Positions 2,680 through 8,948 of a stretch of DNA of 15,013 nt are shown piece by piece. Position 1 is the stretch's first letter; every line of letters starts with the position of its first letter. Source of the DNA: an uncultured Clostridia bacterium (GTDB lineage: Bacteria > Bacillota_A > Clostridia > TANB77 > CAG-508); NCBI GenBank assembly GCA_947625985.1, contig CANQQF010000057.1, positions 1 to 15,013 of the forward strand. The letters are read 5' to 3'. Under the pieces are notes generated by a model that was given only the letters and a program-made list of their open reading frames with translations, did no database searches and was not told where the DNA came from. Position numbers and translations under genes: made by a program.

Positions 2680-2732
2680 TTGCAAAAAAAGAAATATTAC
2701 AATATCATTACATTGTAACATAATAGTAATAT
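2680..2732 (+). promoter_or_regulatory. Promoter region of the M23 peptidase gene
   Basis: Two readings are possible. TTGCAA (2680-2685) and TATCAT (2703-2708) are separated by 17 nt. Alternatively, TAATAT (2727-2732) acts as a -10 without a good -35, which would suit an activated promoter because the WalR-like box then sits over the -35 position. The ribosome binding site AAGGAG (2751-2756) lies 6 nt before the ATG. Confidence 0.45.
2696..2712 (-). promoter_or_regulatory. WalR (YycF) box upstream of the M23 peptidase
   Basis: On the minus strand this reads TGTAAT-GATAT-TGTAAT, matching TGTWAH-N5-TGTWAH at all 12 defined positions. A second, opposed near-match (TGTAAC-N5-AGTAAT, 11/12) starts at 2714 on the plus strand. 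The two together create a 7-bp inverted repeat TTACAAT/ATTGTAA (2697-2703 and 2712-2718). WalR is known in other Firmicutes to control peptidoglycan hydrolase genes, which fits the downstream product. Binding is inferred from sequence only. Confidence 0.6.
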
Positions 2733-2762
2733 AAAAAAGCAAAGTATTCAAAGGAGAAAATA

Positions 2763-3773
2763 ATGTTAAAAAAATTAACAGTGCAAGTAAAAAAAACAAT
2801 AAAGTTTATAATACTTTTAATAATATCTGTTTTTCTTATACTTGGTGCATTTATTTTTTTATATAAACCTACATATAGTGTCTCTATAAATGGTCAACAA
2901 GTTGGTTATACAGATAATAAAGGAAAGTTACAGCAAAAAATAAATGACTATATAGAAAAAGGTGATAGTGAAAATGTAGCTTTTGTGCAAATGGAGAACT
3001 TACCAGAATATAAATTATGTTTACTTAAAAAAGATGTTGTAACAAATGATGATGAAATATTTGAACAAATAAAACAAGCAGGAACATCATACTATCGTTA
3101 TTATGCAATAGCTGAAAATGATGAAGAAAAAGTATATGTAACAAATTTTGAAGAAGCAGAAAATATAATAAACGAATTAAAAACAAAAGAAAGTACAAAT
3201 ATAAACGATATATCAATTGTAGAAAAATATGAAACAGAAACAAAAAACTTTGAAAATGTGGAAACAGCAGTAGCAAGTTTATACAAAGAGGCTCCAAAAG
3301 TAAATCCTGCTGAAGTAGCAAAAGTTGCATCTAATGTAAAAACAGGAGGAACTGTTAACACATCAACAAAAGTTTTGGGAGGAAAAGCTGACATAGGAAT
3401 AAATTTAATTAGACCAATTTCAGGTGTAATAACATCAAGATTTGGAGTATCAAGTAGAGTTAGAAGTTCAGCACATACTGGACTAGACATATCAGCAGCA
3501 ATAGGAACTCCAATAAAAGCAGCAGCAGCAGGGACAGTAAGTTTTGCAGGAAATAAAGGTTCATTTGGAAAAATGATAGCAATAAATCATGGAAATGGAG
3601 TACAAACATACTATTGTCATTGTAGTGCACTATATGCCTCAGTTGGACAAAGTGTAGCACAAGGAGAAGTGATTTCAGCTGTAGGTTCAACAGGAAACTC
3701 AACTGGACCGCATTTACATTTAGAGGTTAGAATTAATGGAACTCCATATAATCCACAAAATTATGTTTATTAA
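2763..3773 (+). CDS. Membrane-anchored M23 family metallopeptidase (peptidoglycan endopeptidase)
   Basis: This encodes 336 residues: a basic N-terminus, one transmembrane segment (about 13-34) and a large extracytoplasmic part. Residues 35-190 are a lysine- and glutamate-rich stalk of unknown fold that begins with VSINGQQVGY. The C-terminal lysostaphin/LytM-type M23 domain covers about 215-336. The zinc site is complete: H238 and D242 (HTGLD), the catalytic H286 (YYCHCS) and H317/H319 (HLHLEV). Enzymes of this type cut peptide cross-links in peptidoglycan, and an intact site suggests an active hydrolase rather than a degenerate EnvC/NlpD-like activator. The domain is also shared with sporulation proteins such as SpoIIQ, but no sporulation gene is adjacent. 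The gene stands alone between its own promoter region and a strong terminator, and a WalR-type box upstream suggests control by wall stress. Confidence 0.9.
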   Translation: MLKKLTVQVKKTIKFIILLIISVFLILGAFIFLYKPTYSVSINGQQVGYTDNKGKLQQKINDYIEKGDSENVAFVQMENLPEYKLCLLKKDVVTNDDEIFEQIKQAGTSYYRYYAIAENDEEKVYVTNFEEAENIINELKTKESTNINDISIVEKYETETKNFENVETAVASLYKEAPKVNPAEVAKVASNVKTGGTVNTSTKVLGGKADIGINLIRPISGVITSRFGVSSRVRSSAHTGLDISAAIGTPIKAAAAGTVSFAGNKGSFGKMIAINHGNGVQTYYCHCSALYASVGQSVAQGEVISAVGSTGNSTGPHLHLEVRINGTPYNPQNYVY

Positions 3774-3784
3774 TTTATTATAAC

Positions 3785-3819
3785 AAAAAGAATCTCGTAT
3801 AAAATACGAGATTCTTTTT
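3785..3819. terminator. Bidirectional rho-independent terminator between convergent genes
   Basis: A perfect 16-bp stem (arms 3785-3800 and 3804-3819) closes on a 3-nt AAA loop. The left arm begins with five A and the right arm ends with five T, so it can terminate both the M23 peptidase transcript (plus) and mecA (minus, whose stop is 9 nt away). Confidence 0.9.
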
Positions 3820-3827
3820 GTTTCTAA

Positions 3828-4433
3828 TCAAGCAAAATATTTAATTCCAGTATTTAATGCATTATGTTTAATTACAGCCTTACCATGTTCTAGCAATTTA
3901 TTTTCAAACATAGTAGAAACATTAAAATATTTTCCAAATTCTGAAAATATAGCAAATAAAGTTTTACAACTAATATTTTTATTATTAATTCCTTTAATAA
4001 ACAAGTAATAAGTATTATTGTATTCATGCAAAGAAATTGAACGAGCCAAACCTCGAACAGCCAAATTAGAACGGTTTAAATAAGTGCATAATTCACAAAA
4101 AGATTCAAAATTATCGAAAGCATAAACCATGTTTTTAACATTAGTATTAATCTTTCTTCTTCTAGGTACAACCTTTTTCCTAGTTTCATCTAAATATTTT
4201 GTAATTGTAAAAATAAAATCATTTTCAGGAGAAGAATACGCCTCAATAAGAAGTCTGTATCCATCAGTTTTAAATCCAACTTCTTCTTCAGCCTGGTTAA
4301 GCATCTCCAAAAAGAATCCTTGAGATTCAATAGCTTTAGTCATAATTGTATGTAAATCTATATTTTTATCTTTAATATCTTCATACTTCAATAAAACACG
4401 TATCTTATTTTCAGTTATCTTTTCAATTTTCAT
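3828..4433 (-). CDS. mecA: Adaptor protein MecA (ClpC/ClpP substrate adaptor)
   Basis: This encodes 201 residues, close to the usual MecA length. MecA proteins deliver substrates to the ClpCP protease and help ClpC assemble; known targets elsewhere include ComK. The N-terminal substrate-binding domain begins MKIEKITENKIRV and continues with the conserved elements NIDLHTIM and EEVGF. A basic linker (RKKVVPRRRK) separates it from the C-terminal Clp-binding domain, which contains NMVYAFDNFESFCEL. An ATG five codons further upstream (4448) is in frame, but its second and third codons form the AGGAGG ribosome binding site lying 7 nt before the start used here, so the shorter form is preferred. The gene ends in TGA directly beside the shared terminator, evidence that TGA is a stop in this organism. 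It is the only minus-strand gene in the window and has its own promoter. Confidence 0.9.
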   Translation of the reverse strand: MKIEKITENKIRVLLKYEDIKDKNIDLHTIMTKAIESQGFFLEMLNQAEEEVGFKTDGYRLLIEAYSSPENDFIFTITKYLDETRKKVVPRRRKINTNVKNMVYAFDNFESFCELCTYLNRSNLAVRGLARSISLHEYNNTYYLFIKGINNKNISCKTLFAIFSEFGKYFNVSTMFENKLLEHGKAVIKHNALNTGIKYFA

Positions 4434-4472
4434 TAAAATCCTCCTCATCGCAAAAATATTATCGCTAAATAC

Positions 4473-4501
4473 ATTATAACATCTATTTTATTATATTTAA
4501 A
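4473..4501 (-). promoter_or_regulatory. mecA promoter
   Basis: On the minus strand, a -35 TTTAAA (4501-4496) and a perfect -10 TATAAT (4478-4473) are separated by 17 nt. This gives a leader of roughly 33 nt before the mecA start. Confidence 0.65.
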
Positions 4502-4665
4502 TATATAATTTTTGGTAAATTTATTTCAATAAATTAATAAAATTTCTCTAGACCACTATAACATATTAAACAAAAAAATAAAATATAAACAACAAAAAAT
4601 GTTAAAAATAAATAACAAAAACTGGATTTTTTTAGTGAAACTGCAAATATAAAGAAAAGCCCAAT

Positions 4666-4682
4666 ATTACAGGAAATTAACA
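4666..4682 (-). promoter_or_regulatory. WalR (YycF) box upstream of the surface-protein gene
   Basis: The minus strand reads TGTTAA-TTTCC-TGTAAT, matching TGTWAH-N5-TGTWAH at all 12 defined positions. It ends 15 nt before the -35 of the predicted promoter, a position compatible with activation. Assignment to WalR is inferred. Confidence 0.55.
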
Positions 4683-4697
4683 AATTGAGGACTAATA

Positions 4698-4725
4698 TTG
4701 ACTACATATATATACATGTTAAAAT
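4698..4725 (+). promoter_or_regulatory. Promoter of the surface-protein gene
   Basis: TTGACT (4698-4703) and TAAAAT (4720-4725) are each 5/6 matches to the SigA consensus with 16-nt spacing, and a TGT just before the -10 makes it an extended -10. A weaker alternative is TTGAGG (4685) with TATATA (4707). Confidence 0.65.
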
Positions 4726-4772
4726 TAATAAAATAGGATAAAAGGCAAGAAATATAAGAAGGAGGGGTAATT

Positions 4773-7700
4773 TTGAAAGTGAGAAAAAAGACAATATTAA
4801 AAATAATTCTTTTACAATTGATATTAATTATATCTTTAATTTTTTTCTTGAATAAATATAGCTTTGCAGTAATAGTTAACAATACAAACAAAATGTTATC
4901 AAATGTTGCAATGGCGGTGGCAGAAAACTTTCACTTAAATGCAGTTGCACTTCCTGAAGAAAATAATAATCATGGAGCTGTTTCACTAGACTGGAGCTCA
5001 TATGGAGATCAGAACGTAATATTTAAAGGTTATCAAAAACGTGAAGGTACAGAGGAATGGAACAGTTTTTCAATATTAAATTATGAAACAATAGATGAAG
5101 TTAAACTTTTACAAGTATATCCAGATACTGGAGCAGGTCAATTGAGAAGTTGGTTAGTAGATAGTGGATATGGGCAAGGACTAATATCAGTTGATGAAGT
5201 AAGTATAACAAACTTCAACAACAATCCTACAGCATATCTAAAAAAAGATGCATCTGGTTCATATAATTATGACGTAATATTTTTTGGAACATGGGATAGA
5301 AATAATTGTAGAGATTTAAGCACAGCATCATATAACGTAGTTGACCAATATATAGAAGCAGGTTATGGATGTATATTTGGACATGATACAATATTAAACA
5401 ATGCGACATTTGTTAATGATACACGTGAAACAAATGGAGGTCCAGTAAAACAAGGGCAAACTAATTTTGATAATTTAGCAAAAAAATATTTTAAATCTCT
5501 ATATCTTGCATCTACACAAAATAATCAAATAAATCATGGAGGTACTGAAGTACAAATTGTAAAATCAGGTCTATTTACAACATATCCATGGCATATAGGT
5601 GATGTTGGAGACAAACTAACAGTTCCAAATTGTCATACATGGGGACAAGGTGTTACATCAGGGTATGAAGATAATGTTTGGCTTAGATTTACAGCTTGGG
5701 GAGCAGATGATCCAACAAACTTCTTCTTAATAACAGAAAACAATGTAGCAATGATACAAACAGGGCATAGTAATGGAACAGCTACAGCAGATGAGCAAAA
5801 AATACTAGCAAATCTAGTATTTAGTTCATATCAAATATCATCAGATACAAGTACAGTTGACCGTTCAGCAATGGACTATAATGCACCAGATAAGCCAACA
5901 GTTAACTTTGAACCTCAAGCAGATGGAATAAATGTAACATTCTCAAGTAAAGACAATGGAACAAACTATACATATAGAATTGATGCATTTAATAAAGACA
6001 ATTACAATGAACCAATAAATTCATCAGATATGCCAACAGTCAATGTAATGTCAGGATTTAGTAACTACTACTATGTAGTAGACACAAATCCAGAAAACAA
6101 CTTTGATATAGCAGGAGCAACATCAACAACAACAGGAGCAATAAAGCTAGGGTATGCAGATAATGGAACTAAATATGTACATATAAAAGCAGCAGATAAA
6201 GCAGGAAATGTAAGTGAAGTATCAACATTACCAATACGAGTATTATCAAATGTAAAATTAAATCCAAATGAAGGAACAATAGATGGAAGTGGAGAAGTAA
6301 AAACGGTAACAGGACTAACAGGAAAAGAAGTATTAACATTAGGGACACCACAAAGAACAGGATATACATTTACAGGATGGTATAGTGACCCAGGATGTAC
6401 AACAAGAGTAACAACAGCAGACAACACTCAATATACACCAATGCAGTTAGAAACAACACTATATGCAGGATGGCAAGTAAACAGTTATGGATACAAAATA
6501 GACTATTACTATGATAATACAAAAGAATCAACAATAGAAGGAACAGCAGAATATGGAACAACAATACAAAACTTTGAACCAAGAGAGAAGTCAGGCTATG
6601 AATTTAGTAGTAAAACAAATATACCAATGCAAATAACAGAAGACCCGAGCAGAAATGTAGCAAGCATATACTATGTAAGGAAAAACGCACAAATAACAGT
6701 CAAATACTTAGATAAAGCAACAAATACAGAAGTACATACACCAGTAATACTTGAAGCAAAAGTATTTGACCCATATGATTTAACAGATAAAGAAGAAACA
6801 ATACAAGACTATACATTAATAGAAAGACCATATCCAATGACAGGAAAGTACACAGAAAAGCCACAAGAAAAGATATTTTACTATGCAAAAAATACACATG
6901 TAACAGTAAGGTACTTAGAATTAGATGATACAGAAGAAGACAATGAAGATAACTTAAAATTATCAAAAGAAACAACAATAGAAGGATATGAAGGACAAGA
7001 ATATAATTCAGATCCAATAGAAATAAATAATTATAAATATAAAAAGTCAACAGCAAATGCAAAAGGAAAAATGACAAGAGATCCATCAGAAGTAATACAT
7101 TATTACGTACAAAAAACAAAAGTAGTAGTAAACTATATAGATAAAAACACACAAACAAAACTAGCAGTAGTAGAACAAGAAGGATTAGTAGGCGATTTAT
7201 TTACAGCAGAAGAAAAAGAATTTGATAATTATAAAATAGTAACAAGGCCAGATAACCCAACAGTAACAATGGGAAAAAGTACAATAGAATTAAATTACTA
7301 CTATGTACATGAATCAGAAGGAGTAACAGAAGAGCATATAGACTTCATAACAGGAGATATATTAAAACAAGAAATACATGAAGGATATGAATCAGACAAA
7401 TATACAACAAAAGAACAAACAATAGAAGGATATGACATAGTAACAAATGAAAGATATTACAAAAAATACATAGAAGATCATCCAGGATATTTAGAAGAAA
7501 ATGAAGTAACATCATTAGAAGAACTATTAAGAAAACTAAATAAAGAAGCAGACGAGCCATACATACCAGAAAACAGTAAAGGAAAAATGAAGGTAGAAGG
7601 AACAGAAGTAAAATACTATTACATAAGAAAAACAAAAGTAAAAGTAGAATATATAGATTCAATAACAGGAAAAGTAATAGACGAAGGAGCGACAGAGTAT

Positions 7701-8507
7701 ATAAAAGACCATGAGAATGACGAATATACAACAACGATGAAGGAATTTGAAGGATATGAGCTAGAAGAAGGCAAATATCCAAAAAATGCAAAAGGAACAA
7801 TGAAAGTTACAAGAAAAGAAGATGGAACAGTAGAAAACGTAACAGAAGTAAAATACTATTACATACACAAATCAGAAGGAGTAGTAGAAAAACATATAGA
7901 CATAGTAACAGGAGAAGTTCTAAAAGAGGAAACACATAAAGGAAATCAATCAGATCCATATAAAACAGAAGCACAAAAATTTATAGGATATGATTTAGTA
8001 ACAAAAGAGAGATATAACAAGTATTTCCCAGAAAAAGGGACAAAAGAAAAAGCAATAAAAGTGACAGCAGAAAAGAAAGACGAAGAAGGCAAAGAAAATG
8101 AAGAAGAAATATATAAGCCAGAGAATGCAGAAGGAGAAATGGGAATAGAAGAAATAGAAGTAGACTATTATTACGTACATAAAGCAGGAGGCGTAGTAGA
8201 AAGGTATATAGAGGAGACAACAGGGAACCTAATAGAAGAGACAAAATATGAAGGATATGAAGGAGACGAATATGAAACAGAGGAGAAAGAGCTAGATGGA
8301 TACATATTTAATAAAAAAGAATATCCGAATAATGCAGAAGGAACAATGACAACAGATAAGATAGAAGTAACATATTACTATACAAAATTAGAGTTACCAA
8401 ATTCAGGAGGAGAAGATAAAAAAAGCGAATACAAGATAATATTATTAATAATAATTATGGTAGATAGTATAATGATAGTATACAATTGGAAAAAGATAGA
8501 TAAATAG
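4773..8507 (+). CDS. Large cell-wall surface protein with DUF5057-like, InlB-type and MucBP repeats and LPNSG anchor
   Basis: This encodes 1244 residues. A signal peptide (basic KVRKK, hydrophobic core 8-26, likely cut after SFA at 32) leads into a roughly 300-residue domain (about 62-360). That domain contains VIFFGTWD, CIFGHDT and MIQTGHSNG and resembles DUF5057 or ThuA-like glutaminase-fold domains. An Fn3-like segment (about 369-490) and one InlB B-type repeat (about 491-567, GYTFTGWY...LYAGW) follow. Eight MucBP-like repeats (572-1207) each start near V.V.YID..TG and end in Y-Y-Y. The C-terminus has LPNSGG (1208-1213), a hydrophobic segment and the tail KKIDK, a sortase signal with Ser in place of Thr. 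The start is TTG, 7 nt after AGGAGG. The protein is probably anchored to the wall and may bind glycans or mucin; the ligand is unknown. The gene is monocistronic, between its own promoter and terminator. Codon use changes sharply at the repeats. Confidence 0.88.
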   Translation: MKVRKKTILKIILLQLILIISLIFFLNKYSFAVIVNNTNKMLSNVAMAVAENFHLNAVALPEENNNHGAVSLDWSSYGDQNVIFKGYQKREGTEEWNSFSILNYETIDEVKLLQVYPDTGAGQLRSWLVDSGYGQGLISVDEVSITNFNNNPTAYLKKDASGSYNYDVIFFGTWDRNNCRDLSTASYNVVDQYIEAGYGCIFGHDTILNNATFVNDTRETNGGPVKQGQTNFDNLAKKYFKSLYLASTQNNQINHGGTEVQIVKSGLFTTYPWHIGDVGDKLTVPNCHTWGQGVTSGYEDNVWLRFTAWGADDPTNFFLITENNVAMIQTGHSNGTATADEQKILANLVFSSYQISSDTSTVDRSAMDYNAPDKPTVNFEPQADGINVTFSSKDNGTNYTYRIDAFNKDNYNEPINSSDMPTVNVMSGFSNYYYVVDTNPENNFDIAGATSTTTGAIKLGYADNGTKYVHIKAADKAGNVSEVSTLPIRVLSNVKLNPNEGTIDGSGEVKTVTGLTGKEVLTLGTPQRTGYTFTGWYSDPGCTTRVTTADNTQYTPMQLETTLYAGWQVNSYGYKIDYYYDNTKESTIEGTAEYGTTIQNFEPREKSGYEFSSKTNIPMQITEDPSRNVASIYYVRKNAQITVKYLDKATNTEVHTPVILEAKVFDPYDLTDKEETIQDYTLIERPYPMTGKYTEKPQEKIFYYAKNTHVTVRYLELDDTEEDNEDNLKLSKETTIEGYEGQEYNSDPIEINNYKYKKSTANAKGKMTRDPSEVIHYYVQKTKVVVNYIDKNTQTKLAVVEQEGLVGDLFTAEEKEFDNYKIVTRPDNPTVTMGKSTIELNYYYVHESEGVTEEHIDFITGDILKQEIHEGYESDKYTTKEQTIEGYDIVTNERYYKKYIEDHPGYLEENEVTSLEELLRKLNKEADEPYIPENSKGKMKVEGTEVKYYYIRKTKVKVEYIDSITGKVIDEGATEYIKDHENDEYTTTMKEFEGYELEEGKYPKNAKGTMKVTRKEDGTVENVTEVKYYYIHKSEGVVEKHIDIVTGEVLKEETHKGNQSDPYKTEAQKFIGYDLVTKERYNKYFPEKGTKEKAIKVTAEKKDEEGKENEEEIYKPENAEGEMGIEEIEVDYYYVHKAGGVVERYIEETTGNLIEETKYEGYEGDEYETEEKELDGYIFNKKEYPNNAEGTMTTDKIEVTYYYTKLELPNSGGEDKKSEYKIILLIIIMVDSIMIVYNWKKIDK
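6486..8393 (+). repeat. Tandem MucBP-like repeat array inside the surface-protein gene
   Basis: Eight protein-level repeats begin at about residues 572, 639, 708, 783, 849, 955, 1035 and 1139. The first is the most degenerate. Repeats five and seven carry 25-35-residue lysine/glutamate-rich insertions after a conserved ERY; six and eight lack them. Repeats 5-6 and 7-8 therefore form a duplicated two-repeat unit of about 186 residues. At DNA level, an identical 25-nt stretch recurs at 7601 and 7841. Confidence 0.8.
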
Positions 8508-8537
8508 GCGAGAAAAACTTGCCTATTTATTTTTTTT
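8500..8537 (+). terminator. Rho-independent terminator of the surface-protein gene
   Basis: A 10-bp stem (ATAAATAGGC at 8500-8509 with GCCTATTTAT at 8521-8530) closes on an A-rich loop and is followed by a T run to 8537. The left arm overlaps the TAG stop codon. Confidence 0.85.
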
Positions 8538-8549
8538 AAAATTGTAAAA

Positions 8550-8603
8550 AATCAATAGATATACTTGAAAAAATTGACAAATCAATATATAATACGATTG
8601 ATT
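8550..8603. promoter_or_regulatory. AATCAAT half-site cluster around the mre-operon promoter (putative operator)
   Basis: AATCAAT occurs at 8550-8556 and 8580-8586, and its inverse ATTGATT at 8597-8603. The last two form a 7-bp inverted repeat with a 10-nt centre that contains the -10 hexamer, a typical repressor geometry. The factor is not known. Confidence 0.4.
8565..8593 (+). promoter_or_regulatory. Promoter of the DUF4321-radC-mre-minC operon
   Basis: TTGAAA (8565-8570) and a perfect TATAAT (8588-8593) are separated by 17 nt. Transcription would start near 8600, leaving a leader of about 88 nt that carries the WalR-type box at 8635-8651. Confidence 0.7.
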
Positions 8604-8634
8604 GGAAAAATATAATTTCCGTAAGAAAAAATAC

Positions 8635-8651
8635 TGTAATAAAACTGTAAA
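8635..8651 (+). promoter_or_regulatory. WalR (YycF) box in the leader of the mre operon
   Basis: The plus strand reads TGTAAT-AAAAC-TGTAAA, matching TGTWAH-N5-TGTWAH at all 12 defined positions. It lies about 35 nt downstream of the predicted start point, which would suit repression or a second, undetected promoter. Assignment to WalR is inferred. Confidence 0.5.
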
Positions 8652-8687: not shown

Positions 8688-8948
8688 ATGGCAGCAAAAG
8701 ATAAAAGTATATGGATTCTAGTAATATTTATATTATCAGGGCTAGTAATAGGCGGACTATTAGGACAATTAGCTTCAAATATAGATTGGCTTAGTTGGAT
8801 GTCATTTGGACAACAGTTTGGCTTACGAGATCCAATAAATCTAGACTTAAGCGTAGTAAATATAACTTTTGGATTAATGTTTAATATTAACATAGCCAGT
8901 ATAATAGGAGTTACTATTGCTATAATCATATATAGAAAATTTGTATAG
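8688..8948 (+). CDS. DUF4321 family small membrane protein
   Basis: This encodes 86 residues with two membrane segments (about 8-28 and 60-84) joined by a loop containing DPINLDLSVVNITFGL. The length, two-helix layout and position just before radC-mreB match the DUF4321 family of Clostridia, whose function is unknown. AGGAGG (8677-8682) lies 5 nt before the ATG. It is the first gene of the shape operon here; maf, often found in this neighbourhood, is absent. Location beside MreBCD hints at an envelope role, but this is only context. Confidence 0.8.
   Translation: MAAKDKSIWILVIFILSGLVIGGLLGQLASNIDWLSWMSFGQQFGLRDPINLDLSVVNITFGLMFNINIASIIGVTIAIIIYRKFV

Follow-up and report, generated by a model that had tools for sequence, protein, structure and literature searches.

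WalR (YycF) is the essential cell-wall regulator of the Firmicutes that have been studied, but knowledge of its targets comes from few cultured species. In Bacillus subtilis and Staphylococcus aureus the WalR regulons are marked by the direct repeat TGTWAH-N5-TGTWAH and comprise wall and division genes, ftsA and ftsZ being targets in B. subtilis (PMC5717166). For S. aureus a position rule has been described, according to which sites upstream of the -35 element activate and sites between or downstream of the -35 and -10 elements repress, irrespective of orientation (PMC10746227). VicR of Streptococcus mutans leaves footprints over direct repeats that follow this consensus, on one strand or the other and at activated as well as repressed genes (PMC4168254). 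Clostridioides difficile, itself a member of the Clostridia, carries walR and walK in one operon and has predicted sites before wall genes, two of them at a predicted hydrolase gene, which is repressed upon over-production of WalR (PMC9210968); the wal operons of C. difficile and S. aureus are stated not to be autoregulated (PMC9210968, PMC4801191). Here we analyze a stretch of 15,013 nucleotides from an uncultured Clostridia bacterium (contig CANQQF010000057.1 of assembly GCA_947625985.1; the whole stretch is called the window), in which a first-pass annotation had reported three exact matches to the consensus, before genes for an M23 peptidase (box 1) and a surface protein (box 2; a MucBP protein by Pfam) and before the mre operon (box 3), and had suggested that one wall-homeostasis regulator might govern all three units. 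Comparison with relatives makes it probable that box 1 serves as operator for a response regulator of the WalR (YycF) type, within a wall-and-division regulon of this uncultured Clostridia lineage. Treating the three boxes as equals had to be rejected, as orthologous promoters set them apart.

Box 1 at the M23 Peptidase Promoter

Box 1 reads ATTACA-N5-ATTACA on the coding strand and thereby matches a core, RTTACA-N5-RTTACA, that is stricter than the published consensus. For comparison 48 loci were taken from a search with MreB; they come from uncultured bacteria, nearly all Clostridia or Clostridium, and by summed DNA similarity the nearest relatives are L045, L021, L025 and L001. Upstream sequence is sufficient for 31 M23 promoters, that of the window included, and 24 of these share a single geometry: TTGCA(A/T), a spacer of 17 base pairs (bp), and TAT(T/C/G)AT, whose first base is position 8 of a strict box. 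The block CCTTGCAAAAAA..AAATATTACAATATYATTACATTGTAA is common to five species within a less conserved surrounding region, and in four relatives (L004, L005, L008, L034) three half-sites follow each other at 11-bp steps, an arrangement of at least three half-sites not described for VicR in the accessible text of PMC4168254, where the targets are also others. By this pattern box 1 is a predicted and deeply conserved operator in the promoter of a gene for a putative wall hydrolase.

Since the -10 element falls within the box, it could be imagined that the M23 block is conserved purely as a promoter and that the boxes are AT-rich by-products to which no regulator binds. This we regard as highly improbable, because the conserved block extends beyond the -10 element into the second half-site and a third half-site is present in the four relatives just named; the genome-wide counts given below also bear on it. 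A palindrome, TTACAAT-N8-ATTGTAA, lies over box 1 (window positions 2697-2718) and hinted at a repressor of another family. It was set aside because, unlike the widespread direct repeat, it is confined to the window, L001, L021, L025 and L045.

Box 1 overlaps the -10 element and S. aureus sites at this position go with repression, so a WalR-type site here would likely repress the peptidase gene. With ATTACA half-sites repeated two or three times at 11-bp steps, WalR could assemble head to tail, as a dimer or a chain, on top of the -10 element and would thereby exclude RNA polymerase; active WalR would then lower the level of this hydrolase. That WalR is the binder of the boxes, and in which direction it regulates, we infer from the comparison of sequences.

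A Stricter Core and Its Targets

Genome-wide counts were made in the genomes of L021, L025, L045, L001 and L010. There the published degenerate consensus barely outnumbers its reversed pattern (296 versus 243 matches), whereas the strict core is enriched about seven-fold (133 versus 19); by subtraction, the consensus matches outside the strict core number 163 versus 224. For genomes as AT-rich as these the published consensus is thus too loose, and a stricter core is available. While the near-equal counts for the degenerate consensus would suit a block conserved as promoter only, the enrichment of the strict core and its one preferred spacing do not: a spacing of 5 gives 26 matches in genome G003 and 32 in G001, and the remaining spacings between 3 and 9 yield 1-13 each. 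In G002, 24 strict sites stand against 1 reversed. Stretches around strict sites in the five genomes were gathered into 88 clusters, the M23 sites coming separately. Only 13 of them lie inside open reading frames (ORFs), as defined by a simple ORF caller, though ORFs cover 89% of that DNA. Similarly, 3 of 43 strict sites are inside ORFs in the 48 loci, which were not chosen for boxes and have the same coverage of 89%, many of the 43 being M23 sites. Ten promoter-like sequences occur within 70 bp after the 88 clusters, at distances of 15 (two), 26 (five) and 35 bp (three), as against two on the mirror side.

In all five genomes the strict core stands before sepF, a pilM-like gene, a TED/DUF11 surface-protein gene, nrdD and the M23 gene, and in four before ftsA, an S11 (dacA-type) peptidase gene, walR, a CpaB-like gene and a gene of an unknown family. 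For these identities one member per named family was scanned, and 'pilM-like' and 'CpaB-like' are our own reading of proteins without a Pfam match. Wall and division genes are thus found among the listed targets (sepF, ftsA, the S11 and M23 peptidases, surface proteins). A near-constant one is sepF: of 30 loci selected without regard to boxes (30 of the 40 matches being listed), 29 carry a strict box before it, as do 5 of 5 loci fetched for their box. Placed about 35 bp upstream of the -35 element, this box is likewise hard to reconcile with conservation as a promoter alone. In the accessible text of PMC5717166 no WalR site at sepF was seen. Compared with the B. subtilis and S. aureus regulons, then, the kind of repeat and of target is the same, and the relatives studied here differ in that enrichment is confined to the stricter core and sepF is a near-constant target. 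In a literature search on regulons of Clostridia, none of the titles listed concerned WalR.

From 37 genomes with a match to WalR, 30 walR loci were taken, of which 29 were readable. A strict box is present in 4 of these, namely in the four nearest relatives, where the array ends 7 bp before a putative -35 element, in contrast to the wal operons stated as not autoregulated (PMC9210968, PMC4801191). Upstream of the -35 element, arrays of this half-site are predicted to have an activating effect, on sepF and ftsA, on some of the surface and pilus-like genes and, in the nearest relatives, on walR.

Several observations weigh against a WalR operator at box 1 and a regulon around it. The strict core was picked after the result for the published consensus, itself hardly enriched, had been seen, and on the same five genomes. 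Clusters between divergent genes (20 of 88) leave the target ambiguous, non-envelope genes (nrdD and a gene for a Crp-type regulator) are among the conserved targets, and 25 of the 29 readable walR loci are without a strict box. At the M23 gene itself 7 of the 31 promoters do not have the geometry of box 1: L036 and L042 have near-matches in its place, L007 has a promoter and no box, and L012, L017, L023 and L044 use other promoters, with a strict box farther upstream in the first three and a looser one in L044.

As a separate observation, nrdD, which encodes the anaerobic ribonucleotide reductase, has its strict box in loci L125, L130, L157, L165 and L179, one in each of the five genomes, and in four of these the gene is divergent from the gene for the Crp-type regulator.

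The Regulator and Its Possible Kinase

All evidence on walR comes from the genomes of relatives, which are drafts of unstated completeness. A full-length match to YycF is present in 37 of 40 of them. Mostly these proteins score just under the curated cut-off of 340 bits, which 1 genome of the 40 exceeds, and this tells against a firm assignment; on the other hand, YycF is the best family by 83 bits for the protein of L091 (encoded at 1495-2223 on the minus strand; 326.8 bits, next family 243.8).

Could another regulator of the OmpR family, PhoP-like or some other protein of these genomes, bind the ATTACA repeats in place of WalR? Regulators of this family have winged-helix domains in common and recognize direct repeats at steps of about 11 bp, the consensus sites of PhoB and WalR are alike (PMC4168254), and most of the 14 genomes tested contain 3-5 such DNA-binding domains. 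Nevertheless, this explanation appears unlikely. Genomes G002, G007 and G016 show the OmpR-type domain of WalR alone, yet strict sites in G002 number 24 versus 1 reversed, and the sepF box is retained in G007 and G016 (L232, L233). The 14 genomes were chosen partly for having few candidates, and all are drafts from which other regulators may be absent, which weakens the argument for WalR. In addition, box arrays precede walR in the four nearest relatives, and the targets resemble known WalR targets such as ftsA and ftsZ of B. subtilis (PMC5717166).

The kinase leaves more room for another OmpR-type system. The candidates reach 344-351 bits against a curated WalK cut-off of 725, and that of L081 is ambiguous, with 349.9 bits for WalK and 346.6 for PnpS. 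Calling it WalK was therefore abandoned. None of the candidates is beside walR: they are on other contigs in G002, G003 and G005 and about 28 kb away in G001, and no strong candidate was seen in G004. In the search for a walR/walK pair, the WalR-like protein was thus found in the relatives and a walRK operon was not encountered, the kinase being unlinked, unlike in C. difficile, where both genes share an operon (PMC9210968). In 4 of 4 genomes examined (loci L079, L080, L081 and L082) murG and a signal-peptidase gene flank this candidate, a histidine kinase gene unlinked to walR.

The Boxes at the Surface-Protein and mre Genes

All three boxes are present where the first-pass annotation had reported them (Table 1), as the sole exact matches in the window. 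Its estimate of about one chance match per 30 kb agrees with dinucleotide shuffles of the whole window, which have a mean of 0.43 boxes and reach three or more in 1 of 200. When the three upstream regions were shuffled separately (expected numbers 0.0066, 0.0146 and 0.002), a box in all three was obtained in 0 of 5000 trials. The claim that the boxes lie far from chance is in this way borne out for exact matches. It is weakened by the absence of an excess at one mismatch (15 found, shuffle mean 11.8, 15 reached in 41 of 200 shuffles) and by the near-equal counts of the published consensus and its reversed pattern in the five genomes.

This excess of exact matches invites the explanation that all three boxes work, with the M23 gene, the surface-protein gene and the whole mre-min operon under WalR and the mre site a recent gain in the lineage of the window. 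The spacing of box 2 would agree with it, being activator-like: before a pilM-like gene (L193) a box is followed by 15 bp and then TTGACT-N16-TAAAAT, a layout identical to that of box 2. Because the match with L193 was spotted after the fact, we regard box 2 as a possible WalR site. Its class, RTTACA-N5-TTAACA, is not enriched in the five genomes (2 versus 9 for the reversed pattern). No orthologue of the MucBP protein was matched in the 48 related loci, and its N-terminal 509 residues gave one weak match in 40 genomes, so that there is no orthologous promoter with which to compare box 2. If real, box 2 would activate by the S. aureus position rule (PMC10746227), perhaps as a weak member of the regulon, and as box 1 would repress by the same rule, even genuine sites may differ in their direction of regulation.

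For box 3 the comparison is less favorable. The promoter TTGAAA-N17-TATAAT of the DUF4321-mre operon is kept in the four nearest relatives; box 3, which starts 41 bp past its -10 element, is not. A box of the published consensus is found at this position in 0 of the 43 relatives in which the DUF4321 start could be placed, the four nearest included (this omits 5 of the 48 loci, and L027 has only 30 bp upstream). The class of box 3, TTTACA-N5-RTTACA, is weakly enriched (21 versus 11 reversed in the five genomes). Orientation was dropped as an argument against box 3, since in clusters with one downstream gene the core is on the coding strand 27 times and on the other strand 31 times. Shape genes can carry such sites, as the strict box GTTACAAAAATATTACA lies just upstream of the mre -35 element in 4 of the 43 relatives (L006, L014, L015, L034) and a box in G004 (L113) covers the -10 element of a second MreB-type gene. 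Even so, a function for all three boxes seems distinctly unlikely. As a WalR site box 3 is poorly supported, and most likely it either arose by chance or is a match of very local extent; the proposal that the mre/Min operon is under WalR through it is not upheld. What endures of the idea of one regulator over all three units is a WalR-type regulon with the conserved M23 box, to which the surface-protein gene possibly belongs.

The G004 locus (L113:2997-3024) has three TGTAAY half-sites before the second MreB-type gene, with TATAAT between the first two.

By Pfam the window encodes a UvrD/PcrA helicase, the M23 peptidase, MecA (on the other strand), the MucBP/Flg_new surface protein, DUF4321, RadC, MreC, MreD and MinC; MreB and PBP2 were named by reading their sequence, outside the Pfam scan. 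The order pcrA, M23, mecA, DUF4321, radC, mreB is common to the window and its four nearest relatives. The MucBP gene looks like a lineage-specific insertion. It lies between mecA and the DUF4321 gene, which adjoin in those relatives. An ORF of 85 residues at 30-287 is hydrophobic and pilin-like in an N-terminal stretch and is without a Pfam match.

Table 1. Boxes, promoter elements and genes discussed in the text (positions in the window)
Feature	Position	Strand	Basis
Box 1, before M23 peptidase gene, ATTACA-N5-ATTACA on coding strand; predicted conserved operator	2696..2712	-	exact match; M23 promoter comparison
-35 TTGCAA of M23 promoter	2680..2685	+	sequence; kept 17 bp before -10 in 24 promoters
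-10 TATCAT of M23 promoter, inside box 1	2703..2708	+	sequence; starts at box position 8 in all 24 promoters
M23 peptidase gene, predicted to be controlled through box 1	2763..3773	+	Pfam Peptidase_M23, E 9.8e-34
Box 2, before MucBP surface-protein gene, ATTACA-N5-TTAACA on coding strand; possible site	4666..4682	-	exact match
-35-like TTGACT, 15 bp after box 2	4698..4703	+	sequence; equal distance at L193
-10-like TAAAAT, 16 bp after -35-like element	4720..4725	+	sequence; equal spacing at L193
MucBP / Listeria-Bacteroides-repeat surface protein gene, 1244 residues	4773..8507	+	Pfam MucBP and Flg_new
-35 TTGAAA of DUF4321-mre promoter	8565..8570	+	conserved in alignment with four relatives
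-10 TATAAT of DUF4321-mre promoter	8588..8593	+	conserved in alignment with four relatives
Box 3, before DUF4321-mre operon; probably not a conserved site	8635..8651	+	exact match
DUF4321 gene, first after box 3; then radC, mreB, mreC, mreD, PBP2, minC	8688..8948	+	Pfam DUF4321; ORFs

Implications for Wall Homeostasis

Taken further, the comparison suggests a circuit that we propose tentatively, its chance falling a little short of even: walR is apart from its kinase, which is encoded at the murG-kinase-signal peptidase locus, and WalR activates sepF, ftsA, pilus-like genes and, in the sub-lineage of the window, its own gene, and shuts the M23 gene by way of the -10 element. If true, this would constitute a self-reinforcing switch that sets wall synthesis and division against wall cutting, unlike wal operons stated to lack autoregulation. 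The regulon can be read from conservation, with a near-constant site at sepF, a repressor-type site at the M23 gene and an array at walR in the nearest relatives, and the stricter core is offered as a testable alternative to the loose published consensus.

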